DNA of 64,000 nucleotides from Bacteriovoracaceae bacterium (GTDB lineage Bacteria > Bdellovibrionota > Bacteriovoracia > Bacteriovoracales > Bacteriovoracaceae). Positions 2,134 to 32,158 of this stretch are shown piece after piece. Position 1 is the stretch's first letter. Each line of letters opens with the position of its first letter. Position numbers and translations under genes: made by a program. The stretch covers positions 1 through 64,000 of the forward strand of contig JAOARC010000046.1 of the NCBI GenBank assembly GCA_025210745.1, written 5' to 3'. Below the pieces are notes generated by a model. That model made no database searches, had not been told where the DNA came from, and saw only the letters and a program-made list of their open reading frames with translations.

Positions 2134-2661
2134 TTACTGAGGTGTCATTTGTAATTTTGTAATATCAAATCCTAGTTCATGCGCTTTAGATGTTAACATA
2201 TTATATGTATCTTCTGGTAATGTTTTTTCTCTAGAAAGAATCCAAAGGTACTTTCTAGAAGGATCACCAATCATAGCATATTCGTAATTGTCTCCTAGGG
2301 CTAGAATCCAGTAGTTTCCTGCAAAAGCATTTATTTTTATAAATCTTAAGAAAAATTGAACTTTAAGCTTTGCATTTGTATTTTTATCTGTAATCCAAGC
2401 TCTTGCTTTGGCTTTCTTTAGTTTTCCGTTAATATTATACTTTCTACATTTATTAAGAACATTTACAGAACCATTTTTTCTTAATGTGTAAGTTGCTGTT
2501 ACCGCAGTACAGTTTTTTTGAAACTTTTGATCAAACCTTGCTATTTCATACCAAGTACCTAAGTATTTATGAATATCAACATTTTCTACTGTTGGTAAGG
2601 GAGCATGCTTTGCACTAAATAGTGAGCACGATACGAGTAATAGAGTTAATAAGTATTTCAT
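2134..2661 (-). CDS. Blc-type bacterial lipocalin, probable lipoprotein
   Basis: The 175-residue exported protein is a bacterial lipocalin. After the signal sequence, residues about 33-40 carry the lipocalin signature LGTWYEIARFD, followed by the beta-barrel strand pattern (CTAVTATYTL, NYWILALGDNYEYAMIGDPS, LWILSRE). The signal peptide contains LVSC, a reasonable lipobox with Cys12 as the anchoring residue, as in outer-membrane Blc; signal peptidase I cleavage after FSA is the alternative. Blc proteins bind fatty acids or lysophospholipids and are stress induced. AAAGGAG precedes the ATG at good spacing, inside the end of the preceding gene, so the two are co-translated. Confidence 0.88.
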   Translation of the reverse strand: MKYLLTLLLVSCSLFSAKHAPLPTVENVDIHKYLGTWYEIARFDQKFQKNCTAVTATYTLRKNGSVNVLNKCRKYNINGKLKKAKARAWITDKNTNAKLKVQFFLRFIKINAFAGNYWILALGDNYEYAMIGDPSRKYLWILSREKTLPEDTYNMLTSKAHELGFDITKLQMTPQ

Positions 2662-3960
2662 TTATTCTCCTTTGAAGTAATTGTTTATAACTTCTTTTCT
2701 ATAATTAAATATTTTTTTTAGATCTTTTTTTACAAAATAAATGCCAAGAAGATCTCCCAGTTTGCCAAAGGGAAGTATGTAATCAACGGTATCTAACATT
2801 AATGTTCCACCGCAAACGGGGTAAAATTCATGGACGTGGTACCACTTTTTATAAGGCCCTTTTAGTTGAGTGTCAGTAAATTTCTTATTCATTTCAAAGT
2901 CCAAGATTTCAGTTGTCCATTTAACACCAATACCATGTATTTTTAGTTTGTAGTCAATAAGTGTTCCACTTTGAATTTTGGCTGTGTTTTTTCCTAGAAC
3001 ATTAAAGTTTAGCTCTTTAGGTGTAATCATCTCTAGGTTTTTTTCATCACAGAAAAATGTGAATGTTTCTTCTAGATTTTTAGGTATAAACTGTGTTCTA
3101 AAGAGTCTTCTTTGTCCTTTAAGATCTTCTTGTAAAAGGTCCTCTAAGACTTCAGTAACGGTTTTAAACTTACTTTCAGTTTCTTTTTTTACACTAGAAC
3201 TATTAAGAACAACTTGTGACATTTGTCCAAGTATTATTTTGATAATTGATCTAGGGGCTTTAAATAAAAGAGGCTTTTTTAAAGTTTTATTAATGAGATG
3301 ACTAAACTCTTTATTGGTTAAACTATGACTAACACCATTAAAGATCTTTTGCTGCGGATTATGACTTGCAATATGAATAATTTGATTAACAAGATCATTT
3401 ATATGAACAATGTTCATCACTTGTTTTCCTGACCCTAAGTATGCTCCAAGTCCAAACTTAAATGCGGGTAGCATCTTATTTAGGGCTCCGCCTTCTTTGG
3501 CTAGTACAATTCCAATTCTAAGGATGTAATAGTTTTTATAAAAAGAGATAACTTCATGTTCCCATTTTTCACAAACATCTTTAATAAAACCTTCTTGATA
3601 GATACCAATAGCACTTGCATTAATAAGTCTAATATTTGGGTTTATTTGATTTAAACTTTTTACAAGTAATCTTGTTGATAAAACTCTTGAGTTTAATATT
3701 TGAGATTTTACTTTTTTATCCCATCTTTTTTTATCTATTGAGTAACCACTTAGATTGATGACAAGATCGATATCTTTTAAGGCAGATACATCAATTATAT
3801 TTTTTGAAGGATTCCAGTAAAAGATATTTGCAGGAAAATCAAAATCGACTGTATTAACTTCCTGAGTTGTTAGAATATTTATTGAATGTCCAAGTTTTAA
3901 AAGCTCAAGGGTTAGTGTTTTTCCAATTAATCCTGTTGCTCCACAAATTAGTATTTTCAT
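2662..3960 (-). CDS. TIGR01777 NAD-dependent epimerase fused to SRPBCC domain
   Basis: This is a 432-residue two-domain protein. Residues 1 to about 285 form an extended short-chain dehydrogenase of the TIGR01777 (YfcH) group, with ICGATGLIGKTL as the dinucleotide loop, VINLSGYSIDKKRW, and NASAIGIY in the catalytic region. Residues about 290-432 resemble an SRPBCC/START-like lipid- or ligand-binding domain (RRLFRTQFIPKNLEETFTFF onward). In many bacteria the two modules are neighbouring genes; here they are fused. The substrate of this epimerase group is not established. It is the first gene of the photolyase operon; the lipocalin begins on the next base after its stop. Ligand-binding parts on two proteins suggest a membrane-lipid or isoprenoid link, as inference. 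Confidence 0.82.
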   Translation of the reverse strand: MKILICGATGLIGKTLTLELLKLGHSINILTTQEVNTVDFDFPANIFYWNPSKNIIDVSALKDIDLVINLSGYSIDKKRWDKKVKSQILNSRVLSTRLLVKSLNQINPNIRLINASAIGIYQEGFIKDVCEKWEHEVISFYKNYYILRIGIVLAKEGGALNKMLPAFKFGLGAYLGSGKQVMNIVHINDLVNQIIHIASHNPQQKIFNGVSHSLTNKEFSHLINKTLKKPLLFKAPRSIIKIILGQMSQVVLNSSSVKKETESKFKTVTEVLEDLLQEDLKGQRRLFRTQFIPKNLEETFTFFCDEKNLEMITPKELNFNVLGKNTAKIQSGTLIDYKLKIHGIGVKWTTEILDFEMNKKFTDTQLKGPYKKWYHVHEFYPVCGGTLMLDTVDYILPFGKLGDLLGIYFVKKDLKKIFNYRKEVINNYFKGE

Positions 3961-3993
3961 AATTTGAAATTACTTGATCCAAATGACAAATAT

Positions 3994-4016
3994 AAGTTAG
4001 ACAAGGTTAGACAAAG
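3994..4016. promoter_or_regulatory. Tandem 10-bp direct repeat in a divergent promoter region
   Basis: GTTAGACAAG (3996-4005) is followed immediately by GTTAGACAAA (4006-4015). The repeat lies in the 110-base gap between the photolyase operon (minus) and the PhnA-like gene (plus). A one-helical-turn period suggests side-by-side binding of a regulator on one DNA face. No protein can be assigned from sequence alone. Confidence 0.4.
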
Positions 4017-4070
4017 ATTTAAATATAGCTTAATCTATCTTTAAGTTATTAATTTTATATGAAGGTTTGT

Positions 4071-4616
4071 ATGGATTTTGTCGAAGATTTAAAACATAGA
4101 TCGGATAACCAATGTGAGTTATGTGGTAGTACTGATGAGCTTAAAAGTTTTTGTATTAAGGCCATTGATACAGATGATATAGCAGATTATGCACTTGCAT
4201 GTAGTACATGTTTAGACTATGAAAGCACTAATGATTTAAATCATTTTAGATCTTTGGCACAGGCCATATGGTCGCAGCATAGTAGTGTTAAGATTCTATG
4301 TTATAAAATATTAAGCACATTATCAGCTGAGTCTTGGGCAAATGATTTATTATCTCAAATCTATTTAACTACTGAGGAACAAGATATCGTTGATAGTACT
4401 GCTGAGGTAAAAATTGTGGACTCTAATGGGACTAAACTTAATGCAGGAGATACAATTACTTTAGTAAAAGACTTAGATGTTAAAGGAGCTGGATTTACAG
4501 CAAAAAGGGGAACAGTAGTAAAGAATATTAGGCTTACAGATGATCCTAAGTATATTGAAGGTAAAATTAATGGCTCTATGATAGTCATTGTTGCTAACTT
4601 TACCAAAAAAGCTTAA
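4071..4616 (+). CDS. PhnA domain protein
   Basis: The 181-residue cytoplasmic protein has an N-terminal zinc-ribbon-like stretch (RSDNQCELCGS, later CSTC) and a C-terminal PhnA domain (VKIVDSNGTKLNAGDTITL, then DLDVKGAGFTAKRGT, then GKINGSMIVI). Despite the name, the domain is not known to act directly in phosphonate breakdown and its role is unsettled. I chose ATG at 4071 over an upstream in-frame ATG at 4059, because AAGG sits 5 bases before 4071 and the resulting N-terminus (MDFVEDLKHRSDNQCELC) matches the usual start of longer PhnA proteins. It stands alone on the plus strand. Confidence 0.82.
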   Translation: MDFVEDLKHRSDNQCELCGSTDELKSFCIKAIDTDDIADYALACSTCLDYESTNDLNHFRSLAQAIWSQHSSVKILCYKILSTLSAESWANDLLSQIYLTTEEQDIVDSTAEVKIVDSNGTKLNAGDTITLVKDLDVKGAGFTAKRGTVVKNIRLTDDPKYIEGKINGSMIVIVANFTKKA

Positions 4617-4696
4617 AAAGTCTTTCATTACTACGTGGTAAATAAATTATGATAAAATGAAGGTAATCTTTAAATTTATATCAGGAGGATATAAGT

Positions 4697-5443
4697 ATGA
4701 AAGTTATTATCGGTATTTTATTATCAAGTACTGTTTTAGCATCATTGCCAGTAAGGTACACACAGTTATTATCATATGTACAAGAAGCACCAGATCAAGG
4801 AGATACAGCGACTTGTTTATATATGGCCACAACAGGTTCGGTAGAGCTTCTTTTAAATCAAAAGTATAATATTAAGTATCCAAATAAAAATGATATTTTT
4901 GATATTTCAGAAAGATATACTTTGTCTCAAAGAGCAAGTGCTAGGGGTTCATGGCACCTAAAGGCTTTAAATCGTTTTAATAAGGGATGGGCAATTAATA
5001 ATAAAGACCTTGAGTATAATGCTTATACTCAAGATGGACAGGTCAATAATACTGTATGGAATAGACCTCGTGATTTTTATGATCTTCCTAGAATTGATAT
5101 TCCTGAAAAATTTAAGGCAAAAAAAATCTTTATTAGAGGAAAAAATAGATATTCTAAATACGTAGTTAAGAAAATAGATATTGAGAATGTTAAAAAAGCA
5201 CTTGTTGAAAATAATGCACCAATTTTAATGAATTATAATCATAATAGATGGTGGCATATGGTTAATATTGTTGGATATGACGATGAGGCCAAAGGAGAGT
5301 GTTTACATACACCAAAAGAACAATGTTCAGGTAAGGGAGCTTTTTATGTAAGAGACTCTCTTGGTAAGGTAACGCACCTTCGTGACTACGACTGGTTTAG
5401 AGTTAATGCCAATGCAGCCTTTGTAGTAACTTTAGACGAGTAA
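4697..5443 (+). CDS. Exported papain-like cysteine peptidase candidate
   Basis: The 248-residue protein has a short Sec signal (MKVIIGILLSSTVLA) and looks like a divergent papain (C1) fold. QGDTATCLYMAT at 34-45 resembles the QGxCGSCWAF active-site block, with Gln34 and Cys40 as oxyanion and nucleophile candidates. WWHMVNIVGYDDE at 185-197 resembles the catalytic-His block (His187). AFYVRDSLG at 215-223 stands where the Asn block (VKNSWG) lies, with Asp220 instead of Asn. The order and spacing fit; overall similarity is low. AGGAGG lies 8 bases before the ATG, a strong ribosome site. Only about 60 bases separate it from the next exported peptidase-like gene, so the two may work together. The peptidase call is inference from motifs. 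Confidence 0.6.
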   Translation: MKVIIGILLSSTVLASLPVRYTQLLSYVQEAPDQGDTATCLYMATTGSVELLLNQKYNIKYPNKNDIFDISERYTLSQRASARGSWHLKALNRFNKGWAINNKDLEYNAYTQDGQVNNTVWNRPRDFYDLPRIDIPEKFKAKKIFIRGKNRYSKYVVKKIDIENVKKALVENNAPILMNYNHNRWWHMVNIVGYDDEAKGECLHTPKEQCSGKGAFYVRDSLGKVTHLRDYDWFRVNANAAFVVTLDE

Positions 5444-5468
5444 ATTGACTAAGAACTTATTAGAGACG

Positions 5469-5502
5469 ATACTATTTCTATAATTTTTTTAGGAAATAGT
5501 AT
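5469..5502 (+). promoter_or_regulatory. Hairpin burying the start site of the next gene
   Basis: ATACTATTTC (5469-5478) pairs perfectly with GAAATAGTAT (5493-5502) across a 14-base U-rich loop. The right arm begins within the Shine-Dalgarno (AGGA, 5491-5494) and ends in the first two bases of the ATG at 5501. If folded, it would hinder ribosome loading on the downstream 911-residue gene. Confidence 0.5.
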
Positions 5503-8236
5503 GCGTCTTTTTTTTATATGTTTAATTGCATTTTCTTCATATGCACAGTTTAACCAAACACTTCCAAACTTAGATTGGAAAGAAATTTCAACAAAACACT
5601 TTCGTATTATTTTTCCAAATGAGCTTAAAAGTAAAGGTGAACTTGTTGCAAATGCAATGGAAAAATATCTTGGGCCTTTAAGTGAATCTTTAGAGTTTGA
5701 AGATCCCCATCATAGAATAGATGTTATTTTAAATAATCAAAGCTCCATTAGTAATGCTTATGTTGCTCTAGCACCATTTTTATCTAAGTGGGAAAGTACT
5801 CCAACTCTTGCAACAGATCTTGGTAGTACGGATTGGTTTATAACTCTTGCAATTCATGAACAAAGACATATTCATCAATTCTTAAAATATAAAAAAGGTT
5901 TTGCTAAATTTCTTTATTATATGTTTGGACAGATGGGACAAGCTGTAAGTGTCTTTTTCTCAACTCCAGCTTGGGTTTTTGAAGGAGATGCGACCTATGA
6001 AGAGACACTGCTTTCAAAGTCTGGAAGAGGAAGAGTTGCTCAGTTTGATATGCATCTAAGAGCATTATTAGATTCTACAGATATGCCGGATTATGATGAA
6101 TTCTTGTATGGATCGTACTATAGAAGAATCCCAAATCATTATGTTCTTGGATATATGATGAATTTTAATTTACGTAATTATTATCCGGCAAGCTCATTAA
6201 ATGCTATATTTAATGAAACTGCTAGAAGTTCTTATTCGGCATTTGCTTTTGAAAACTCTTTAGAAGATCTTTTAGGCGAAGACATAGAAAAGTTCTATAA
6301 AAATGCTCATTTTCGCTATAAGGAGCTAGCTGCTTTTGGTGATGAAGATTATAAAAGGTTGCATAAAAAACAAGAGGTTTATACAAATCAATCTTTTGTC
6401 TTTATTGAAAAACAAAGAATGTACTTTCAAGAAAGTGGTTTTTCAAAAGTTCCAGCGATTGTATCTATGACACTAGATGGTAAAGATAAGAGAGTTGAAG
6501 TTAAGTTATCTAATATTTTAGATCATAGATTTGATGTTTGTGATAAAAAGATACTTTTTTCTGATTTTGAAACTCACCCTCGTTACAAGAATGTGGTTTA
6601 TTCAAATATTTATATGAAGGATGAGGGCATTAAAACAATTAGTCAAAAGCAAAAAGTTTTTAATCCTATTTTTTCTAAGAGTTGTAACTCTATTTACGCT
6701 CTAATATTTGATGATTCTATGAATCAGTTCTTAATAGAACTAGATACTAAAGGTAAGACTCTATTAAAGGTTAAAGTTAAAGATGGGCATTTAGTAAGAA
6801 ATATTTCTTTTGATAGAAAAAGTAATCTTTTGTTTATGAGTATGACTGATAATGATGGGAATTATTATTTTTCTAAATTAATTGGCAAAAAGATAATACC
6901 TATAAATAAAAAAATGAAGGCCAATGTCTCTGATTTATATGCATATGATAATACTCTTTATTTTTCTAATGACTCAAGTGGCGTGGGTAATATATATAAG
7001 TTTCAAGCTAATAAAGTCTTTAGACTAACAGATGCTAAGTACGGAATACGTTATCCATTTTTTCATAATGATGTTCTATATTTTAGTGATTATTCAGTAG
7101 ATGGCTTTTATCTATCTAGGCTTAATAAAGTAGATTCATTAGTAAAAACAGATTTTGACTTTCCAATTGATCAAGTTAATAAAGCTTCGCCAAAGATTGC
7201 AAACGTTGATAAAAAAAGACAGTCTACTGATTATGAAAGAGAGTTTTTTAATATTCATTCATGGAACTATCTTCCTGCTGTTTTAAGTTCTCAGCAAGCA
7301 TCATTCACTATTTCTTCTACTGATATCTTAGGGGAGTTAACATCAAATTTTGGTATTCAAAATGATAATCAAAAGGGAGCAACTAGTGCTTTTGCAACTT
7401 TAGTTTATAGTCGTTATTGGCCAGTACTATTTGCTGGTTTTAGTGCAGGAAAAAGAAGTGTTTTTATTGATTCTGATGAAACCCCTTCTAATGTTGATTA
7501 CTATAAATGGAATGAAAACAGTTTTGATCTTGGAGTATTACTTCCTTATACAGTAACAACTTTAGGAAAAACCTATGGAGTTAGTCTTACTAGTATTGGT
7601 AAATATATAAAAGTTGATGATAAAAACTATCCTTCATATCCTAATTCTGGAGAAGTATTTTTAAAAGGATTTAATTTAGAATTGAAGTATAGTACTAATA
7701 AGGCTTTTTTAAGGCAGTTTGCAGACTTTGAAATTAATACTGATTTTATTTTTCAAGAAGCAATAGCTTTAACTGGAAATGAAACCTATGAGCAGGTCAG
7801 AGGTATAAATTTATACACAGCATTTAAAGGATTTACTAAAACGAGTAACTTCTTATTTAAAGGATCTTACCAAGAAAAAGTTTTAAATACATATGATATT
7901 GGTGATACAGGTTTTTTTGCTAGGGGGTATGAGTTTATAAACTCTAAGCTTTTAAGCTCTTTTAGTGCAAATTATATGTTTGCTAGTTTTTATCCTGAAT
8001 TTGGAATCTTTGATACTCTTTATTTTAAAAGAATGAGAACAAATCTTTTCTATGATCATACTAGGCTTAACAATACCAAAGAATATGCCAGTGCTGGGCT
8101 TGAGAATGTTTTTGATATTACTCCATTTCGCTTTTCAGGAATTGAGCTTGGGCTTGGAGTACGTTCAACTTATAGAAAAATAAGTGATGACTGGGAGCAT
8201 CAAGTGTATCTAGAGTCCTTATTCGAGACATTTTAA
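5501..8236 (+). CDS. Exported HExxH peptidase / beta-propeller / outer-membrane barrel protein
   Basis: This 911-residue protein has three visible parts. After a signal peptide (MRLFFICLIAFSSYA), residues about 20-280 look like a gluzincin-type zinc peptidase: HEQRH at 119-123 supplies two His ligands and the catalytic Glu, and WVFEGDATYEE near 158-168 supplies a likely Glu161 ligand. Residues about 290-560 contain repeated short strands (for example DNTLYFSNDSSGVGNIY and NDVLYFSDYSVDGFYLSRL) like a TolB/WD40-type propeller. From about 600 the aromatic, alternating pattern and a C-terminal Phe fit an outer-membrane beta-barrel. This architecture would anchor a peptidase and protein-binding propeller at the cell surface. 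Specific substrates are unknown. Confidence 0.7.
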   Translation: MRLFFICLIAFSSYAQFNQTLPNLDWKEISTKHFRIIFPNELKSKGELVANAMEKYLGPLSESLEFEDPHHRIDVILNNQSSISNAYVALAPFLSKWESTPTLATDLGSTDWFITLAIHEQRHIHQFLKYKKGFAKFLYYMFGQMGQAVSVFFSTPAWVFEGDATYEETLLSKSGRGRVAQFDMHLRALLDSTDMPDYDEFLYGSYYRRIPNHYVLGYMMNFNLRNYYPASSLNAIFNETARSSYSAFAFENSLEDLLGEDIEKFYKNAHFRYKELAAFGDEDYKRLHKKQEVYTNQSFVFIEKQRMYFQESGFSKVPAIVSMTLDGKDKRVEVKLSNILDHRFDVCDKKILFSDFETHPRYKNVVYSNIYMKDEGIKTISQKQKVFNPIFSKSCNSIYALIFDDSMNQFLIELDTKGKTLLKVKVKDGHLVRNISFDRKSNLLFMSMTDNDGNYYFSKLIGKKIIPINKKMKANVSDLYAYDNTLYFSNDSSGVGNIYKFQANKVFRLTDAKYGIRYPFFHNDVLYFSDYSVDGFYLSRLNKVDSLVKTDFDFPIDQVNKASPKIANVDKKRQSTDYEREFFNIHSWNYLPAVLSSQQASFTISSTDILGELTSNFGIQNDNQKGATSAFATLVYSRYWPVLFAGFSAGKRSVFIDSDETPSNVDYYKWNENSFDLGVLLPYTVTTLGKTYGVSLTSIGKYIKVDDKNYPSYPNSGEVFLKGFNLELKYSTNKAFLRQFADFEINTDFIFQEAIALTGNETYEQVRGINLYTAFKGFTKTSNFLFKGSYQEKVLNTYDIGDTGFFARGYEFINSKLLSSFSANYMFASFYPEFGIFDTLYFKRMRTNLFYDHTRLNNTKEYASAGLENVFDITPFRFSGIELGLGVRSTYRKISDDWEHQVYLESLFETF

Positions 8237-8299
8237 TCTTTGTTATTTCGCCATCTTTCTGGCATTATAAGCCTTTAATTTAACTTAAGAGAGCAATTA

Positions 8300-10225
8300 G
8301 TGACTTTTGACAATTTTGGTCTAAAAGAAGGCCTATTATCCGCATTACAAGACATTGGATTTGAAAAACCAACAGATATTCAAAGCGAAACAATTAAACC
8401 AATTTTAGAGGGTAAAGATATTTTTGCTATGTCTGAAACTGGTTCTGGAAAAACGGGATCCTTTGCTATTCCAATAATTGAAAAAATTCTAAGATCACAA
8501 AATGAGTTTGAAAAATATCTTGTTTTAAGTCCAACTAGAGAGCTTGCTCAGCAAACAGCAAGTGTTATAAATCAATTAGGTGCAACTATGGGAATTAGTA
8601 GTGCATGTCTGATTGGTGGTGAAAAATTTGAAAAGCAACAAAAGCAAGTTGAAACAGCTAAAGTATATGTGGCAACACCTGGAAGGTTTTGTGATTTTGT
8701 TAAGCAAAAGTTTGTTCCAGCTAAAGATATCATATGCGTAGTTTTTGACGAAGCAGATCGTCTATTTGAAATGGGATTTCAAAAAGATATTGAATTTGCT
8801 TTATCGAAGGTTCAAAAAGATAGACAGCTTGTAATGGTTTCAGCAACTTCTAATATGGAAGTTTTAAAAACAGCATATAAGTTTCACTCTGAGCCATTAG
8901 AGATTAAACTGAATCATGATGACTTACTAGTTGATAATATCAATCATGAAGTAGCGATGATTTGTGAAGATGAAAAAATGCCGTACCTTGTAAACTTTCT
9001 TAGAAAAAGAAAAGATGATTGTACGATAATTTTTTGTAATACTCAGTATATGACTCATTTAGTGAGTATGTGGCTTAATAAAATGGACTTTAAGTCTATG
9101 GCCATATCTGGAAAACTAGCACAGAATAGAAGAACAAAGTTAATGGAATCTTTTAGAAATAAAGAGATTACAACTTTAGTATGTACAGATGTTGCGGCAA
9201 GAGGCCTTGATATTGATGATGTAAACCTTGTTGTTAATTATGATCTTCCAAATGAAGCTGCTAACTATGTTCACAGAATTGGAAGAACTGGTAGAGCCGG
9301 AAAAGAGGGTTATGCCATAAGTTTTTGTGGTGAAAATGATGGGGAAAATCTTGATGCCATCTACACACTTATTGAAGATAAAATTAATAAAATCGATATT
9401 GAAGATGAAGATTTTGCAACTGATTTAGTTCCAAGACCAAAAATAGATAGTAAAACTCTTAAGGAATATTCTGATAAAAAACCTAAAAAAGAGTTTAAGA
9501 AAAATAAACCTAAAAAAGAATTCAAAAAAGATCAAAAAAGAGAAAAAGACATGACTGAAAGAAAAAGAAAAGTACAAAATCACACTCCTGAAAAGATTAA
9601 AACTTTTGAAATTGAAACAACTAGTGAAAAAGATGCTAAAAATAAAGCTCTTAGATATTTTAAACTTATGGACGATAGTCTTCTTAAGATGGAAGTTCTA
9701 TCTAAAGGCTCTAAGAAATTTATCTTCTTTGGACCAAGAAAAGTTAAATATTCATTTAGCGTAACTCCAATTTTTAAAAGAATGTTATTACCATTTTTAA
9801 TTAAGCTGATTAAGAAAATGGGATTAAATGTATATGTAAGAGTTTCTTTTAAAGAGCCAGAAGTTAGAATCAATATATCTGGTAAAGATATTAAAGCCTT
9901 TATGGCAAATAAGTTTGCTCTAAAAAGAGCTGTAGAGCAGTTAGCACTTGTTCAACTTAGACAAAAAATTTATTTATCCCCAAGTATTAAGGTTAATGTA
10001 AGATTAGATAAAGAAGATAATAGAATGACTGAAGCTCAGATCATAGAGTTAGTAGAAAAAACAAAAGCACAAATTATCGAAACTAAAGAAGCAAAAACTC
10101 TTAATGCTCTAAACCCAGCTGATAGAAGAATCGTACATCAAGCAATTAATGATGATGCACGATTTGAAAGTAACTCTATAGGGGATGGAAGATTTAAGAA
10201 AATTGAGATTTCTTTAAAAGCTTAA
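8300..10225 (+). CDS. DEAD-box RNA helicase fused to a Jag/KhpB-like RNA-binding module
   Basis: This 641-residue cytoplasmic protein starts at GTG with AAGAGAG upstream. Residues 1 to about 375 form a complete DEAD-box helicase core: Q motif around 21-29, SETGSGKT with Lys51, PTREL, DEAD at 150-153, SAT, and HRIGRTGRAG. A lysine-rich linker (about 395-430) follows. The C-terminal third resembles the Jag/KhpB protein: a Jag-N-like stretch at about 434-485 (ending KFIFFGPRKVKYSF), a KH-like stretch at about 500-550 (VRINISGKDIKAFMANK), and an R3H-like domain at about 565-641 with NPADRRIVH, giving the Arg609-x3-His613 motif. Helicase function is certain; the C-terminal assignment is from pattern and order of domains. 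It probably remodels structured RNA or ribosome precursors. Confidence 0.88.
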   Translation: MTFDNFGLKEGLLSALQDIGFEKPTDIQSETIKPILEGKDIFAMSETGSGKTGSFAIPIIEKILRSQNEFEKYLVLSPTRELAQQTASVINQLGATMGISSACLIGGEKFEKQQKQVETAKVYVATPGRFCDFVKQKFVPAKDIICVVFDEADRLFEMGFQKDIEFALSKVQKDRQLVMVSATSNMEVLKTAYKFHSEPLEIKLNHDDLLVDNINHEVAMICEDEKMPYLVNFLRKRKDDCTIIFCNTQYMTHLVSMWLNKMDFKSMAISGKLAQNRRTKLMESFRNKEITTLVCTDVAARGLDIDDVNLVVNYDLPNEAANYVHRIGRTGRAGKEGYAISFCGENDGENLDAIYTLIEDKINKIDIEDEDFATDLVPRPKIDSKTLKEYSDKKPKKEFKKNKPKKEFKKDQKREKDMTERKRKVQNHTPEKIKTFEIETTSEKDAKNKALRYFKLMDDSLLKMEVLSKGSKKFIFFGPRKVKYSFSVTPIFKRMLLPFLIKLIKKMGLNVYVRVSFKEPEVRINISGKDIKAFMANKFALKRAVEQLALVQLRQKIYLSPSIKVNVRLDKEDNRMTEAQIIELVEKTKAQIIETKEAKTLNALNPADRRIVHQAINDDARFESNSIGDGRFKKIEISLKA

Positions 10226-17721: not shown

Positions 17722-18594
17722 TTACCATATAGATTTTTTTGGTTGGTACCAACATCTCGATCTTAGTCCTTGTGTATCATTATTTTTTCTATTACAAGTT
17801 CCTATATTGGCATCTTTATCTGAAAGCTCTTGCGCTAAAGGTCTATCACATAGAGCCCCAGCAAAATATGTATCTAGTCTACACTGAGCTTTAGGATGTT
17901 TGTGATTTGTTTTAGATACTTCTGATGTATCAGGAGTATCTACTTTAGGCATATCTTGTTTACCTAATGAAGCCAAAAGGTTTGTTGTACTTTGAGCTGC
18001 AACAATTGATCTAATACATAAATTAACTTCAGCCTCACTTTTGTAAATGCTATTACATTTTTGTTCAATCATAGGATGAACGTCTAATTTTGCAACAATT
18101 GATGCATTATCATCATCTAAGTAAACTTTTCTAAAACATTTTAAAGTCGCAAAATAATCAGATTGACCCTCATTAGATGCCCAAGTTGTACTAAAGAATC
18201 TTTTTATCTTTGGAGCTCCTCCTAGGTGATGACCAAGCTCATGGCAAAGTACAATGGCAAATCCGTCTCTTGTTACTAAAGAGTGTCTTGCAAGGCCTCC
18301 ATACATATTGATGATAACATTACTTCCTTGTCTTTGAGCTGAAGCGTTTACAGTTCCATTATCCCATAATTTATTCATAGTTAGTTTATCACCATTTTTT
18401 TCAATAATAGGCTTATAAACTTTTACAACTTCATCGATAACTTTCATAAATTCTTCTTTATCAATGCCGTTGATTGACTTAACTGATGAAGGGATATTTA
18501 AGTCATTTTGAGGAGCAAAACCCGTTTTTCCGTCAATATCACAAGCTATTGCTCCAAAAGTGAGTGATAACACCATCATAGTAATTAATTTCAT
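17722..18594 (-). CDS. Exported zinc metallopeptidase (HELGHH type)
   Basis: The 290-residue protein has a Sec signal (MKLITMMVLSLTFGAIA) and a gluzincin-like active site. FAIVLCHELGHHLGG places His118, Glu119 and His122, and ASNEGQSDYFATLKC about 20 residues later supplies the likely third ligand Glu142 with Asp146. The C-terminal third is Cys-rich (for example LDTYFAGALCDRPLAQ), suggesting disulfides after export. Motif spacing recalls M48-like peptidases, but overall similarity is not obvious. AAGGA precedes the ATG. The substrate is unknown; in a predator it may act on prey or envelope protein. Confidence 0.75.
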   Translation of the reverse strand: MKLITMMVLSLTFGAIACDIDGKTGFAPQNDLNIPSSVKSINGIDKEEFMKVIDEVVKVYKPIIEKNGDKLTMNKLWDNGTVNASAQRQGSNVIINMYGGLARHSLVTRDGFAIVLCHELGHHLGGAPKIKRFFSTTWASNEGQSDYFATLKCFRKVYLDDDNASIVAKLDVHPMIEQKCNSIYKSEAEVNLCIRSIVAAQSTTNLLASLGKQDMPKVDTPDTSEVSKTNHKHPKAQCRLDTYFAGALCDRPLAQELSDKDANIGTCNRKNNDTQGLRSRCWYQPKKSIW

Positions 18595-19005: not shown

Positions 19006-19704
19006 ATGAGATTGTGTTTAATTTTATTAATATCAACTTGTGCTTTTGCTGAGATTGTATGGGATGATTACCGAGTTGCGTTAAAGAAGCTAACAACAAA
19101 AAGCCATCAGCCACTAATAGACTATTCAAGATCTAGAAGAATAATAATTCAGAACGTTCATTTAAAAAGTGATAATAGAGGATACTTTGTTAAAGATGTT
19201 TATTGTAATGAGTATGTAAGAAAGGTAAGTCCTACTAAAATGCCTTCACATACTATAATTAATATAGAGCATACTTGGCCGCAAAGTCGTTTTAGTAGAA
19301 AGTTTTCTAAAAGTATGCAAAAGTCAGATCTTCATCACTTATATCCAACTAATAATAAAGCAAACTCAACGAGAGGCAACTATAAGTTTACCAATGTAAG
19401 TTCAAACTCTCAGTTAAGAGGTTGCGATGATTCAAGCTTTGGTTATTCGAGTGTTGGTAATTTTGAAGGTTTTGAACCGCCATCAGAACATAAAGGAAAT
19501 GTTGCAAGGGCAATATTTTATTTTTCAATAAGGTATGATTTAGAAATTTCTTCAGCAGAAGAAAGTGTTCTAAGAATGTGGAATCTAATGGATCCAGTTG
19601 ATTCTGATGAAATGAAAAGAAATGATCTTATAAGTTCAATACAGGGAAATAGGAACCCATTTATTGATAATCCTGAGTATGCTGAATTGATTTCTAATTT
19701 CTAA
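19006..19704 (+). CDS. Exported endonuclease I family DNase
   Basis: The 232-residue protein has a signal peptide (MRLCLILLISTCAFA) and is an EndA/NucM-type nuclease. IEHTWPQSRF (His89) contains the catalytic His and metal-binding region, KSDLHHLYPTNNKANSTRGN (residues 106-125) completes the beta-beta-alpha metal site, and NPFIDNPEYAELI is the family's C-terminal signature. These enzymes degrade DNA non-specifically in the periplasm or outside the cell. Length matches the family (about 230-250). In a predator, digestion of prey DNA is a natural role. The DUF2288 gene follows after 3 bases. Confidence 0.92.
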   Translation: MRLCLILLISTCAFAEIVWDDYRVALKKLTTKSHQPLIDYSRSRRIIIQNVHLKSDNRGYFVKDVYCNEYVRKVSPTKMPSHTIINIEHTWPQSRFSRKFSKSMQKSDLHHLYPTNNKANSTRGNYKFTNVSSNSQLRGCDDSSFGYSSVGNFEGFEPPSEHKGNVARAIFYFSIRYDLEISSAEESVLRMWNLMDPVDSDEMKRNDLISSIQGNRNPFIDNPEYAELISNF

Positions 19705-20683: not shown

Positions 20684-20886
20684 AATATACCTTTGAAACA
20701 AAGTGTTTCTAAAAAGTAAGAAAAAATGACTTAAATAAAAAATTATATGTAAGTATTACAACTTAGAATTATCCTTTTGTATAATAAAAACTATAAAAAA
20801 TTGTAAGTTTTAATTTTGATAGTCAAGCGAATCCAATTGATTATCATTGCAAAGGCAATTGCTTTTGCCTCTCTCAATTTGTGGGT

Positions 20887-20907
20887 CACCTAGTATTATA
20901 CTAGGTG
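20887..20907. terminator. Palindromic hairpin downstream of the giant exported protein gene
   Basis: CACCTAGTAT (20887-20896) and ATACTAGGTG (20898-20907) make a near-perfect palindrome 16 bases beyond the giant gene's stop. It is likely a terminator, but no U-run follows in the minus transcript, so an mRNA-stabilising 3' hairpin or protein-binding palindrome is also possible. The rest of the 239-base gap up to the dehydrogenase start shows only AT-rich DNA. Confidence 0.4.
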
Positions 20908-20922
20908 GCCTTACAAGAAATA

Positions 20923-23900
20923 TCAGTAAGTTTCTACGGAAAGGACTTGAGAGCCTTCTGTTCTAACTGGTGCAGGAAAGGCGGTTACTAAGTCTCCAGA
21001 TTCTGATATAACAGCTTTTATTCTTACACCATCAACGACTCCTTCATAGATAAGAACATTAGTACCATCAGAGGTTTTAGATAGTTGTTTGGGAATAGTT
21101 GTATTTTTTATTTCATTTATACTTTTAATTATCTTGTTTGCATCCCAAGAAGAAGGAAATAAGTTCTTTCCTATCGTTTTATAGCCACCTTTAGAAGATT
21201 TTATAAGCTCTCCATTTTTATCAAGTAGTGGAAAGCGAACCTCTCTAACTCCATTAGGATATTGCCTATTAAACTTTGCTTTTATATGTCCCGTTTCATC
21301 TAAAAGGTAGTCAGAATAAGTTTTATTCTTTTTTAAAAGTAAACCAAGAGAATGTTGCGTGTGCATTCCTCCAGTAATTTCAGGTTCACCTTTAGTATTG
21401 ATTTTAATATTACCTTTATTAATATGAGTATAGTTTGGATACATAGATGGATCATTATTTTTAATAGCATGGGATTTAGAAAAGCCACCAGTCCATACAA
21501 TTTCCTTTTCTTTTAATTGTTTTGCCTTTTCAGTAAGTAAAGACTGATCGGTTGTATTTTTTGATATGCCCTTCGTCTTAATTCGCATATCAACAGGTTT
21601 TGTAAGATGAGAGTTTTTTGAGCTAAGTAAGATAAGTTTATCATACTGCTCTTTGGTTACTTGAGATTCATTATTAATATTTTTAGTTATTTTATAAATC
21701 TCATCTAAGTTTTTATTTACTTTAGAAGCGGTTTCTTTTAAGTGTTTAACTTTTTCTTGCATACTTTCTACAAGTTTTATTCCAGCATTTAAATCACCAT
21801 TTTGATAGGCCTTAGCAAGTTCTATATGTTCTTTTGTACTTAATATCATTTCAAAAGTGTAATCACTAGATCCACGCATTTTATATCCCGATTTACCTGC
21901 AACTTTCAAATTAGCAGTAAATACATCTTTTCCATTAACTGTCTTTTTTGCAAAAGTAAGATTACTTTTAAGTAAAGAAGGTGCTTTTTTGTAAAACTGT
22001 GAAGAATCTAAAAAACTATTCGCTCGATATATTGTAGCTTCGTTACTAAATGAACCATATTTGATATTATTTAGAAGTGATTTTAAGTCAACCTTTCCAT
22101 TTAATAAAGATTGCCTTACTCCTTTGGCGTAAGTTTGAACTTCGTCTAAACTAAAATAAGTAGAGTATGGAAGATTCTTCATATCAATACTATATTTTTT
22201 TATAAACTCTTCGGAAGGAATGAAAATATTTTCTCGCGACGAATGTATAGTTAAATTATATTGATCATCAGCTCCATTAATATAATCTTGTGCTCGTTTA
22301 AAGTGAGTTGCTTCATGAAGTGCTGCACTTGATGGTTTTGCCTCTAATATAGATTTATGCCCGATATATAGAGTGGAAGAAGCTTCATCATACATACCGC
22401 CAATATGGCTTCTTTTAAGCATCATTGGATCGTACACAACTGTTATATTATTCTTTTTTAGTGCTTGAGCGTATTTACCAAGCTTAGTGTTATCGCCTGT
22501 TAAAATAAATGCCTCAGCATTTTTTTGATAAGCGATCCCTTGATTTTTTAGATGAGTCCCTATTTCATTATAAATTTTTATATCTTCTGATGCTGTACTT
22601 GCAGTATTTTTAAACCAATTTCTAACGTCATTTCCGAGTTGAGGATCAATATAATCGTTATTAGATTTTAATGGTATATGAGTACTATTTTTAAAATTTT
22701 TGTTAATGGCTTCTTCAATTTGGTCAAAGTGGACTCTATTTGCTTTTAATATGTTTTTATCTGTAGTTATTCTTTCAAGCTTTTGAAAATCAAGTCGTCC
22801 AAAAGTTTTTATCATTGTATTTGGGTTATTTGCAACAATATCTAATATCTTCGCCATTCCTTCTGGAGTTGCGTTACTTAAGAACTCGAGTGTCTTATCC
22901 ATATGCTTAGCTTGTGTATTTCTGAGTAATAAGGATAAGGTCGTCATTTGTTCTGAGTTAAGAGATTTTATATTTTCATTTAATCTTTTTGCAACTTGAG
23001 GCTTAGTTTGATTATAGTCTTTTAGTTTTGAGTTAAGTTTTTTTAATCCTTCTTTTGCTTGTTTTGTTAATTTATTCCAGCTTTTAGAATCATTAATCGT
23101 TTGTGTTGTTCCAAGAGAATTTTTAACAATCTTCAACCTAGAAAGTTTTGCTGCAAGAGCTCCTAGTTCTATAGCGTCAAACCCTAGACCAAAAATAGCT
23201 ATATACATCCCCATCTTATTATCATCATAACGACTCTTTATCTGAGGTAGCATTTTTAGTTGGTTTTCAATATCATCCTCAATTGAAGTTGCAAGATTTC
23301 CTTGAACACAAGATTTTTCTTGATTTGCTATATCCATATTGTGTTTAAGTATTCCTATTTCTGCTGTTGTAAGTACAACAGATGAGCCGAGTAAAGCAGC
23401 GCCTAAAGGACTGCCTACACCTGTGAACATTAGAATAACCCCTGCTATTGCAGCAGCTCCTCCTACTATCTGTGAGGATCTTAGATCAAAGGTATCTTCA
23501 TTATAAATTTGCTCAATAAACTGGCACGCATTTGCAGATAGCTCTTGCGATTTATTCTTACTAAGGAGTTCAGCCATGACAGAAGGTCTTGTTTTTAGTG
23601 TTGCAAATATATTTGCATTTCTCGCATCAAGATCATTTGGATTAAGTGAATTATCAAGTTTTTTTATTTCACTTTGAACAAATGCATCCATTTGATTTCT
23701 AGCCATTTCAAACTGATCTTTCGTTATTTTTTTAAAAGGCATACCTGAGTGGCGGTTAGCGCAGTATTTATCTAGCCAATTAGAAAAGTTTGCTCCGAAT
23801 TTTTGTTTTGAAAACATATTTTCTTGAATTGCATCCATTCCTATAATAGAAGCCGCTTTTGGATTTTTAGAAACAAGTTCATTCCATGCATCTTGAGCTT

Positions 23901-25533
23901 TACTCTGATAGAGGTGTTGTTTTTGCTTTAATGAGTAATCCATTGCTCTTAAAGGTCCTTCTGTATCACAACTTCGATAAGGAGAGTGCTTAGATAGATT
24001 ATGTAGGTGTAATTTTAGGTCTTCTTCCATCATATTTCCATTTTTATCAATGAAAACAGAAGGATCACCACTTTGCCCTGAAATAATAGATCTTGCTAAA
24101 AAATCAGCATCATATTTTCCCATGGAGTTTCTATTGTTTTGTTCTAAGTAGAATGAGGGGTTTTTTCTAACAAGTTGATAAAAATCATTTGCAATAGGGT
24201 CTTTGAATCTTTTTTTAGATCCGTATTGAGTATATTGTCTTAGAGTTTCATTTGGTAGGGAAGAAAAAATTTTTTCGTTTATAAGATATTCTTTCTTTAG
24301 CTCCATACATATATGATTAAATTGATCTAAAGTGTGATTAAGATCTTTTAAATCCTGTTGAATTTCTTTTTGAGTGGGCTTACATGGTTTGTTTAAATCT
24401 TTATCTTCAAAATGATTCCACGCTTGTAGGGCTTTTTTATCAAAAAGTTCCTGCTCAAACTTTCTGTTTTTAAATTGAGACTTTATATGTTTCATAGCTT
24501 CTTCTTTGCTGAACATAGAAGCCTTGTTGCGGCATAACTCATATTTCCACGATGCTATAAACATATCGGGAAGAACCTGGTAGCTTATTTTTTTGTTCAT
24601 TTCATCAAAGTCTTTGTCTGCAAGATGATTCTTTATTTTATCCCAATCATTTTTAAGTACTCCAATTTCATTTTGGGAAAAATAATGATTTGCTCTACAG
24701 GCATTAGCATGATTGGTAATTTGACTTTCTATGTTTCTCCCATAGACATCACCTTGGGCATTTTCTTTACGACAGCGCTCTAAAATACCTTGTACCCTAA
24801 GTTGTGTGGCCATATTTTCTTGATCGATTTCTATAGACTCTATTGCTTTTTCCATTTGTTCTAAGCTTTTTATATTATCTAAGTCAGTAAGTGCTTTTTC
24901 AAAAAAACTTTTTGTATGAGGTAATTTTTGAGAGTCAATTTTATTCCTTCTATGAGGAATATATCCTTGTAGAGTTTTTAATTTTTTATAATGGCCACGA
25001 CATTTTTTAAGAGCTTTTTCTTTTCTTTCTTTAAAAGTAAGGTGGGAATAATTTGAGTTTTCTATGTACCGTTTTTTTACAAGCTTTGAGTTACTGCAAA
25101 AGTTTACATGATCAGCATATTTTTTTATATCTTCATCAAGGGATACTTTTAAAACTTTTGACATGCAATAAGCATTATAAGCTTTACATTCTGTCCACTG
25201 TTTTGCATTTTTACAATCTAGATAAGTGGGTGACTTTCCATCTGTTCTTTCAAACCATTTTCTTGTATTAGGATCTTTGTTTAAAAAATGAACCATTTGG
25301 TCGTATTTAGTTAGTATACTTTGATGGTCATACTCTCTTAAAGAGCGGTCATATTTGTTATGTTTATTATATAAGCAGCGACTTATATCATTTGCACATA
25401 TATCATCTCGAAAATTAATCAGATTATTTTCTTGAATAAAGGATTGGCATTTTAAATCAATAGCAGCTTTATCTTGTCCAAAGGCCAATAAATTCAAAAA
25501 TAGTAAATATAAAATCACTACCCAAAACTTCAT
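20923..25533 (-). CDS. Giant exported protein with HExxH motif and C-terminal EndoU-like RNase domain
   Basis: This 1536-residue protein has a Sec signal (MKFWVVILYLLFLNLLAFG). Residues about 25-660 are helical and Cys-rich, suggesting a disulfide-braced exported region. Hydrophobic segments lie at about 681-725 (VGGAAAIAGVILMFTGVGS) and about 776-795. HEATH at 1073-1077 is an HExxH motif; SLDEVQTYAKG supplies Glu1131 as a possible third zinc ligand. The last about 160 residues resemble bacterial EndoU (PF14436-type) toxin domains: GGMHTQHSLGLL with His1391 and His1394, NGVREVRF, LFPSSWDANKIIKSINEI, and a final VKxVISESGDLVTAFP-like strand. EndoU domains are metal-independent RNases of polymorphic toxins. 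No immunity gene is adjacent. The EndoU call is from motif order; a peptidase role is less certain. Confidence 0.72.
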   Translation of the reverse strand: MKFWVVILYLLFLNLLAFGQDKAAIDLKCQSFIQENNLINFRDDICANDISRCLYNKHNKYDRSLREYDHQSILTKYDQMVHFLNKDPNTRKWFERTDGKSPTYLDCKNAKQWTECKAYNAYCMSKVLKVSLDEDIKKYADHVNFCSNSKLVKKRYIENSNYSHLTFKERKEKALKKCRGHYKKLKTLQGYIPHRRNKIDSQKLPHTKSFFEKALTDLDNIKSLEQMEKAIESIEIDQENMATQLRVQGILERCRKENAQGDVYGRNIESQITNHANACRANHYFSQNEIGVLKNDWDKIKNHLADKDFDEMNKKISYQVLPDMFIASWKYELCRNKASMFSKEEAMKHIKSQFKNRKFEQELFDKKALQAWNHFEDKDLNKPCKPTQKEIQQDLKDLNHTLDQFNHICMELKKEYLINEKIFSSLPNETLRQYTQYGSKKRFKDPIANDFYQLVRKNPSFYLEQNNRNSMGKYDADFLARSIISGQSGDPSVFIDKNGNMMEEDLKLHLHNLSKHSPYRSCDTEGPLRAMDYSLKQKQHLYQSKAQDAWNELVSKNPKAASIIGMDAIQENMFSKQKFGANFSNWLDKYCANRHSGMPFKKITKDQFEMARNQMDAFVQSEIKKLDNSLNPNDLDARNANIFATLKTRPSVMAELLSKNKSQELSANACQFIEQIYNEDTFDLRSSQIVGGAAAIAGVILMFTGVGSPLGAALLGSSVVLTTAEIGILKHNMDIANQEKSCVQGNLATSIEDDIENQLKMLPQIKSRYDDNKMGMYIAIFGLGFDAIELGALAAKLSRLKIVKNSLGTTQTINDSKSWNKLTKQAKEGLKKLNSKLKDYNQTKPQVAKRLNENIKSLNSEQMTTLSLLLRNTQAKHMDKTLEFLSNATPEGMAKILDIVANNPNTMIKTFGRLDFQKLERITTDKNILKANRVHFDQIEEAINKNFKNSTHIPLKSNNDYIDPQLGNDVRNWFKNTASTASEDIKIYNEIGTHLKNQGIAYQKNAEAFILTGDNTKLGKYAQALKKNNITVVYDPMMLKRSHIGGMYDEASSTLYIGHKSILEAKPSSAALHEATHFKRAQDYINGADDQYNLTIHSSRENIFIPSEEFIKKYSIDMKNLPYSTYFSLDEVQTYAKGVRQSLLNGKVDLKSLLNNIKYGSFSNEATIYRANSFLDSSQFYKKAPSLLKSNLTFAKKTVNGKDVFTANLKVAGKSGYKMRGSSDYTFEMILSTKEHIELAKAYQNGDLNAGIKLVESMQEKVKHLKETASKVNKNLDEIYKITKNINNESQVTKEQYDKLILLSSKNSHLTKPVDMRIKTKGISKNTTDQSLLTEKAKQLKEKEIVWTGGFSKSHAIKNNDPSMYPNYTHINKGNIKINTKGEPEITGGMHTQHSLGLLLKKNKTYSDYLLDETGHIKAKFNRQYPNGVREVRFPLLDKNGELIKSSKGGYKTIGKNLFPSSWDANKIIKSINEIKNTTIPKQLSKTSDGTNVLIYEGVVDGVRIKAVISESGDLVTAFPAPVRTEGSQVLSVETY

Positions 25534-31108: not shown

Positions 31109-32158
31109 ATGAAAGGTTTATTACTCATTGCTTTTGCATTTAATGCTTTTGCAACTGATACACAGACACAAAGTACAAAATGGAATTTTCAAAACGATCC
31201 ATATAGAATTGATAAAAACTTTGAAAACAGATTAGATCTGTTGCCAAAATCTGGAGATATTAGTTCTTCTGGACTTGGATGGCCTGGATATTTTTGGGCC
31301 AATAAAAAAGGTGGAATTGCTCAAAGGTGGTCTTCTGAAAAACCACAGCATTTTAAGTACGAATCTCCATCTTTAATACAGTTAAGATCCATGTCGCATC
31401 AAAAAATTTCTGAACTATCGGCAGCGGAAAAATTTGATATAATGATGGGAAGATATGATTATCCGACAGTAAAAAGAGTATGGGGTCAAACAAGTAAAAG
31501 AGCTAAAGCGTGGCATGGTATTTGTCATGGAGTTTCTCCTGCTGGACTTCATCATATAGAACCTAAGGCCAGAACATTAATCAATCCACACGGAATAAAG
31601 GTTACTTTTCACTCTTCTGATTTGAAGGCACTAGTTGCTTATTATTATGCAAAAATATCAGATACGGGAATTATTCAAATAGGAAAAAGATGTTTTGCTG
31701 GAAAAAGAAATCCTTTTAAAGCAAAGGGATGTAAGGACGTAAATGCTGCTTCTATGCATATTATCATGGCAAATAGACTAGGACTTACAAAAACTGGTTA
31801 TATTGCAGATATTGATCCAAATAAAGAAGTTTGGAATCATGTCGCGGTAAAATTTAATTCTAAAATTTTAGGAATTGTTTCTCCAATAGCTTCTTCTGCA
31901 GCTGGAACTTATAAAAGAGCAAAGGTATATACAGAAGTTTATTATACTGGTGGTGTTGATCCAAGTCCCTTTGCTATTTTAGGAACGCAAAATGCAAAGT
32001 GGGATATCAAGAAATATGAATATTACTTAGATCTTGATATTAATAATAAAATTTTAGGAGGGACATGGATTTCTAAGGCCAGACCTGACTTTATTTGGGT
32101 AAAAGATAAAGAGACTTTTGCTCATGATTACTACGGCAAAATTTTAGATTTACTTTAA
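31109..32158 (+). CDS. Exported TGase-elicitor-like (transglutaminase) protein
   Basis: The 349-residue protein has a signal peptide (MKGLLLIAFAFNAFA). It resembles the transglutaminase-elicitor family first described in oomycetes and also present in some bacteria. LGWPGYFWANKKGGIAQRW is near the N-terminus, AKAWHGICHGVSPAGLHHI carries the candidate catalytic Cys139, and EVWNHVAVKF carries the candidate His244. The order and spacing of the Cys and His blocks suit a papain-like transglutaminase. Family assignment is from memory of motifs. If active it could crosslink or modify envelope protein or peptidoglycan-linked protein. GGAG precedes the start at a suitable distance. Confidence 0.6.
   Translation: MKGLLLIAFAFNAFATDTQTQSTKWNFQNDPYRIDKNFENRLDLLPKSGDISSSGLGWPGYFWANKKGGIAQRWSSEKPQHFKYESPSLIQLRSMSHQKISELSAAEKFDIMMGRYDYPTVKRVWGQTSKRAKAWHGICHGVSPAGLHHIEPKARTLINPHGIKVTFHSSDLKALVAYYYAKISDTGIIQIGKRCFAGKRNPFKAKGCKDVNAASMHIIMANRLGLTKTGYIADIDPNKEVWNHVAVKFNSKILGIVSPIASSAAGTYKRAKVYTEVYYTGGVDPSPFAILGTQNAKWDIKKYEYYLDLDINNKILGGTWISKARPDFIWVKDKETFAHDYYGKILDLL

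Follow-up and report, generated by a model that had tools for sequence, protein, structure and literature searches.

A carrier core of Bdellovibrionota, joined in one exported protein to a predicted EndoU ribonuclease and a probable zincin-like domain

The window analysed here is the whole stretch of 64,000 nucleotides, from a genome that is 88% complete. On its minus strand lies a large gene with a G+C content of 31.3%, compared with 31.5% for the window. An earlier note on this DNA had read the gene as encoding a Sec-exported protein of 1536 residues, and this is borne out: the minus-strand open reading frame (ORF) is real, and a Sec-type signal lies at the N-terminus of its product. The features of the gene are as follows.

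20923..25533, minus strand: complete gene for a 1536-aa exported protein with carrier, zincin-like and EndoU parts; ATG at 25533, stop at 20923
25477..25533, minus strand: Sec-type signal peptide, residues 1-19, MKFWVVILYLLFLNLLAFG, from sequence and hydrophobicity
23713..25476, minus strand: cysteine-bearing N-terminal part, residues 20-607, with 15 of the protein's 17 Cys
23134..23712, minus strand: conserved carrier core, residues 608-800, with the conserved Cys670, from alignment A1 and a leave-one-out HMM
23344..23472, minus strand: Gly-rich hydrophobic hairpin, residues 688-730, VGGAAAIAGVILMFTGVGSPLGAALLGSSVVLTT..., from hydrophobicity and the near-invariant A1 columns T97, G98 and G104
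21835..22647, minus strand: zincin-like domain, residues 963-1233, whose H, E, H and Glu are the same in all five family members aligned
22303-22317, minus strand: HEATH motif, residues 1073-1077, within the zincin-like domain
22141-22143, minus strand: Glu1131 of the zincin-like domain, invariant in five family members
20974..21429, minus strand: EndoU RNase domain, residues 1369-1520, with His1370, His1391, Lys1456 and Thr1517, from Pfam PF14436 and invariant columns of alignment A4
20702..20922, minus strand: gap downstream of the EndoU gene, the expected position of an immunity gene, with no ORF longer than 39 aa starting inside

Windows of 19 residues with a mean Kyte-Doolittle value above 1.6 occur only at residues 1-21 and 686-717. 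The sole Pfam match of the protein is to EndoU_bacteria, and no significant match was found in NCBIfam or PADLOC. Searches with the whole protein in phages and with the EndoU domain in plasmids gave no match. Named genomes yielded no relative of the whole protein at first, and a second scan added an uncultured Halobacteriovorax alone.

The C-terminal EndoU domain claimed in the earlier note is upheld by a profile match and by an intact triad. PF14436 covers residues 1369-1520 with E=5.9e-11 and 43.3 bits, above the gathering cut-off of 25.3. Across five EndoU domains of the phylum (alignment A4), H1370, H1391 and K1456 are invariant, whereas position 1394 varies. His1391 and His1394 had been put forward as the conserved pair; the second catalytic His is here reassigned to His1370, since 1370 and 1391 are invariant and 1394 is not. 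Downstream of the triad, A4 has Ser or Thr ahead of [FY]P; in the window protein this is T1517 in VTAFP. In the EndoU toxin CdiA-CT STECO31 the published His-His-Lys triad is H187, H204 and K261, together with T262 (PMC9086364). As read from the alignment, the predicted triad of the window domain, His1370-His1391-Lys1456, matches it. Both His are lost in the relative from genome G002.

Structural modelling added little. For both regions singled out for structure prediction and fold search the models are poor, with no significant match; for the EndoU region, whose expected fold consists of two BECR subdomains and whose alignment had 4-5 sequences, mean pLDDT was 47 and the fold search returned no significant PDB match. 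An EndoU profile run against PDB sequences recovered no EndoU, and because the same failure was seen with an exported EndoU protein of the phylum (L130), that search is uninformative for EndoU domains of this clade. The domain is thus assigned from sequence and is a predicted RNase. EndoU is rare, in 3 of 129 genomes of the family and 9 of 369 of the phylum, and the window protein is the only EndoU in its 88% complete genome. This is the sole genome in which an EndoU fused to the carrier was seen; the majority of EndoU proteins identified in the phylum are carrier-less.

An internal HEATH motif with a later candidate Glu ligand had also been reported, and motif and Glu were both confirmed as conserved. 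In a protein of this composition HExxH is expected by chance about 0.05 times, and HEATH lies at residue 1073. When the window protein is aligned with the distant relatives L026, L066, L104 and L114 (alignment A3), HExxH and Glu1131 are invariant, and L026, L066 and the window protein share S-[LF]-x-E-[VL]-x-T-[YF] around E1131. Because the motif and Glu1131 recur in four distant relatives, the region is probably a real zincin-like domain. Its AlphaFold model, also from 4-5 sequences, has a mean pLDDT of 48 and places HEATH within a helix. The top Foldseek matches of this low-confidence model include selecase/jannalysin, IrrE/PprI, Wss1 and BlaR1, several of the top matches being metallopeptidases, all with E>0.3. 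The domain of the window protein matches no Pfam peptidase family; relative L109 has a weak match to Peptidase_Mx1 (2e-4). Autoprocessing had been suggested earlier as one role; since L026 and L066 carry a zincin-like domain as their only recognisable cargo, the domain may instead serve as a second effector and have no part in processing. Elsewhere in the window (17722-18594, minus strand) an exported 290-aa protein bears a HELGHH motif and falls under every Pfam metallopeptidase cut-off.

The main point of the locus, missed in the earlier note, is the shared carrier core. When relatives were searched with the whole protein, similarity appeared at residues 588-880 and not at EndoU. An alignment of ten carrier cores (A1), too divergent for a pattern scan, contains an invariant Pro, a near-invariant Cys and the Gly-rich hydrophobic hairpin. 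Its matches, in ORFs of about 520 to 2400 aa, come from 49 of the 129 family genomes and from 77 of the 291 phylum genomes. With the window protein removed, the leave-one-out HMM recovers it with E=2.9e-23, and has zero matches in 200 shuffles or in the other ORFs of the window. That the similarity might reflect a generic hydrophobic stretch was considered and rejected, as the leave-one-out search with just the soluble part still recovers the window protein at E=1.4e-7. A signal-like N-terminus is present in 63/66 members and an internal hydrophobic segment in 68/68. The core is unrelated to any Pfam family. Among the members are an uncultured Halobacteriovorax and a genome in a single contig of 3,782,950 bases (L099), the length of Bdellovibrio bacteriovorus HD100 and called HD100 below. 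No paper describing the family was found in a literature search that covered few subscription journals, and these carriers with interchangeable enzyme cargoes are apparently an undescribed family.

The hairpin also marks a change in composition. In 35 long members the frequency of Cys falls from 1.62 per 100 residues ahead of the hairpin to 0.19 beyond it, about nine-fold lower (294 of 18187 residues vs 37 of 19953, p=8e-57 if residues are taken as independent). All 17 Cys of the window protein precede its last 794 residues; the other ORFs of the window have a mean of 1.38 Cys per 100 residues.

The long members are unlike one another in what follows the core. The cargo set found on carriers comprises EndoU, Fic (L110, Pfam 2.7e-7), a papain-like peptidase (Peptidase_C1_2 in L105, 5.7e-6), Ppx/GppA (L115, 2.2e-23), a PARP-like domain slightly under the cut-off (L116, 1e-5), a kinase-like domain with a weak Pfam match to PI3/PI4 kinase, and the zincin. 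Tails resembling RelA/SpoT in L012 and L115 were recognised by a motif seen by eye, with no Pfam call and a PDB match to GTP pyrophosphokinase at E=0.26. The L115 protein (2367-9581 of its contig), an exported carrier of 2404 aa, has Ppx/GppA followed by the RelA/SpoT-like motif region, and may possibly attack (p)ppGpp signalling in prey. A repeated module, AH..G ... YT ..QL..K.RIL ... G..G, lies between carrier and cargo in L012, L067, L059, L060, L065 and L116, and has no Pfam match. Cargo varies strongly between related genomes.

Carriers also occur in a two-gene form. Short carriers are of 520-815 aa, and their 3′ end often overlaps the start of an exported gene; in most pairs this overlap takes in the carrier stop codon and is 4-44 bases long. 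The same kinds of domain are found in both arrangements. EndoU is fused in the window protein, and the separate partner gene in L017 encodes an EndoU-like protein similar to it (E=2.3e-6) that falls below the Pfam threshold by itself. The kinase-like domain is fused in L061 and separate in L078, whose partner protein matches the L061 tail (E=9.7e-23). A DnaJ-domain partner gene is present at 6 of 6 Bdellovibrio loci and in L016 (in HD100, Pfam 1.1e-17), and a J-domain-like tail is fused to the carrier in L058 and L063 (HPDK) and in L062 (HGDK), a weak link at E=0.006. In HD100 (L099 4329-6661, at about 626.3-628.7 kb) the short carrier overlaps an exported DnaJ-domain gene by 10 bases; for a J-domain, no periplasmic partner is known. 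The occurrence of the same domains both fused and adjacent argues, at the level of gene arrangement, that carrier and cargo work together.

How the two products might be held to each other is suggested by their cysteines. The short carriers mostly have exactly six mature Cys, or four in Bdellovibrio. A terminal Cys ends 26 of 29 short carriers and 3 of 34 long ones, counts taken from related sequences that are not independent. Several partner proteins have one mature Cys, close to one terminus. Because most short carriers end in Cys and several partners have a single terminal Cys, a disulfide tether between the two, opened by reduction in the prey cytoplasm, is possible; parity is inconsistent, the sum of carrier and cargo Cys being even in L089 and L090 (7+1) and odd in L017, L078 and HD100.

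The Bdellovibrio pairs bear on a different explanation, in which the carrier is an envelope protein acting on the producer and its cargo serves regulation or folding in the producer's own periplasm. A short carrier with an exported DnaJ-domain gene stands at every Bdellovibrio neighbourhood examined, as this would predict. That a short carrier with no enzyme fused to it is conserved there also counts against the effector reading favoured below, since the carrier might have had an ancestral role other than that of an effector. No periplasmic substrate is known for EndoU, Fic or kinase-like domains, however, and the strong variation of cargo among related genomes speaks against a producer-envelope role, which we regard as very unlikely.

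The absence of an immunity gene beside the EndoU gene, noted earlier, has been confirmed. The gap holds no ORF of normal size, the neighbouring genes match no immunity family, and no MafI homologue was found in the source genome by a search that did find its positive control (G233). A distant immunity gene could still lie elsewhere in a genome that is 88% complete. In a genome of the same genus (G001) the adenosine deaminase neighbour is present and the flanks are different. Two other exported proteins of the window are encoded on the plus strand, an Endonuclease I at 19006-19704 (Pfam 1.7e-35), 1.2 kb from the EndoU gene, and a protein at 31109-32158 matching Transglutaminase elicitor (Pfam 3.5e-27).

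EndoU is a standard warhead of polymorphic toxins, with diverse immunities (PMC3482391). The protein could be such a toxin, directed at close kin, and its immunity gene could be unlinked or belong to a family not yet known. Two EndoU genes in the phylum have suggestive neighbours: the carrier-less G233 (L132 4886-7445) is followed 4 bases downstream by a MafI gene (NF033691, 1.5e-11), and 10 bases past an exported EndoU gene in G086 (L021 7882-8448) is an ORF of 188 aa without an evident signal, a candidate immunity protein of an uncharacterised family. No homologue of that 188-aa neighbour was found, the gap, the neighbouring genes and the genome search gave no immunity gene as described above, and the overlapping partners beside carrier homologues are mostly exported, unlike cytosolic immunity proteins. 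A classical polymorphic toxin is thus an unlikely reading here. We consider it less likely still that the protein is a secreted digestive RNase scavenging prey RNA after the membrane is breached, with the carrier as a surface anchor only. Carrier-less exported EndoU proteins elsewhere in the phylum and the nearby Endonuclease I gene would suit such a role; Fic, kinase-like, PARP-like and Ppx/GppA domains on the same carrier are non-digestive and need cytoplasmic substrates.

Predators feed on other cells, and Bdellovibrionota has predatory members. Several kinds of cargo depend on NTPs, NAD, RNA or Hsp70, which are cytoplasmic, and carriers and partners bear export signals. Given the cytoplasmic substrates of several cargoes, the failure to find an immunity gene and the predators' habit of feeding on other cells, we favour, with moderate confidence, a carrier-plus-cargo effector that probably acts in the prey cytoplasm, its export, delivery and use in predation being presumed from sequence. 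The protein would leave the producer cytoplasm through Sec, and the hairpin would insert into a membrane. The carrier would then bring the Cys-free C-terminal half to and across the membrane of another cell, which for a predator that invades the periplasm would be the prey inner membrane. In the target cytoplasm the EndoU domain would cut RNA, plausibly tRNA, and the zincin-like domain would free the RNase or attack a second target. No immunity gene would be kept, as the protein would be exported from the producer and used on prey rather than kin. In relatives the carrier bears different cargoes, either fused to it or encoded by an exported gene that overlaps its own. The earlier idea of an RNA weapon used on prey without an immunity partner fits a phylum-wide carrier family with cytoplasm-type cargo; its delivery into prey we infer.

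More tentatively, these carriers may form a dedicated system of Bdellovibrionota, different in kind from the polymorphic toxins known so far, for introducing interchangeable enzymes that work in the cytoplasm (RNase, Fic, kinase, ADP-ribosyltransferase, J-domain) into prey; the cargo would be fused or held non-genetically. A J-domain brought into prey in this way could enlist the Hsp70 of the prey cell itself. Most characterised effectors of invasive predators act on the cell wall, and the disabling of prey from within is poorly known. The family supplies a list of candidate proteins that would act inside the prey cytoplasm, including in a model species, where the carrier and exported DnaJ-domain gene pair of HD100 brings the question directly within reach of ordinary gene knock-outs and protein tagging. 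Whether immunity is dispensable for toxins that are used on prey alone can likewise be asked with this family.

The window protein resembles bacterial EndoU toxins (PF14436; CdiA-CT STECO31, MafB EndoU) in its family match above the cut-off, its His-His-Lys residues and the C-terminal position of the domain on a very large exported protein. It differs from them in having no Pfam match to filamentous haemagglutinin repeats, VENN, HINT or PT linker, in a carrier core outside Pfam families and in that no immunity gene was found; as for contact-dependent inhibition, there is no CdiB-like gene among the ORFs at 14-33 kb. AB-type toxins combine a membrane-active carrier with an enzymatic part, in one chain or two gene products. 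The carriers described here share this division between one or two gene products, and differ in having no homology, a presumed bacterial target and an assembly of carrier and cargo that is so far only predicted. Like polymorphic toxin systems (Zhang et al. 2012, PMC3482391), they have a conserved N-terminal trafficking part, variable enzymatic C-termini, a sporadic distribution and the toxin classes EndoU, Fic/DOC, papain-like, metallopeptidase and ART. Unlike those systems, there is no linked immunity at the window locus, the cargo is sometimes a separate, overlapping exported gene, and the carrier proteins have Cys-bearing N-terminal and Cys-poor C-terminal halves. CapCone-2 is Lipocone-based, with no evident relation to the carrier core; the two are alike as predicted secreted two-gene effectors of Bdellovibrionota, those of CapCone-2 having been proposed to act on prey (PMC12419801).
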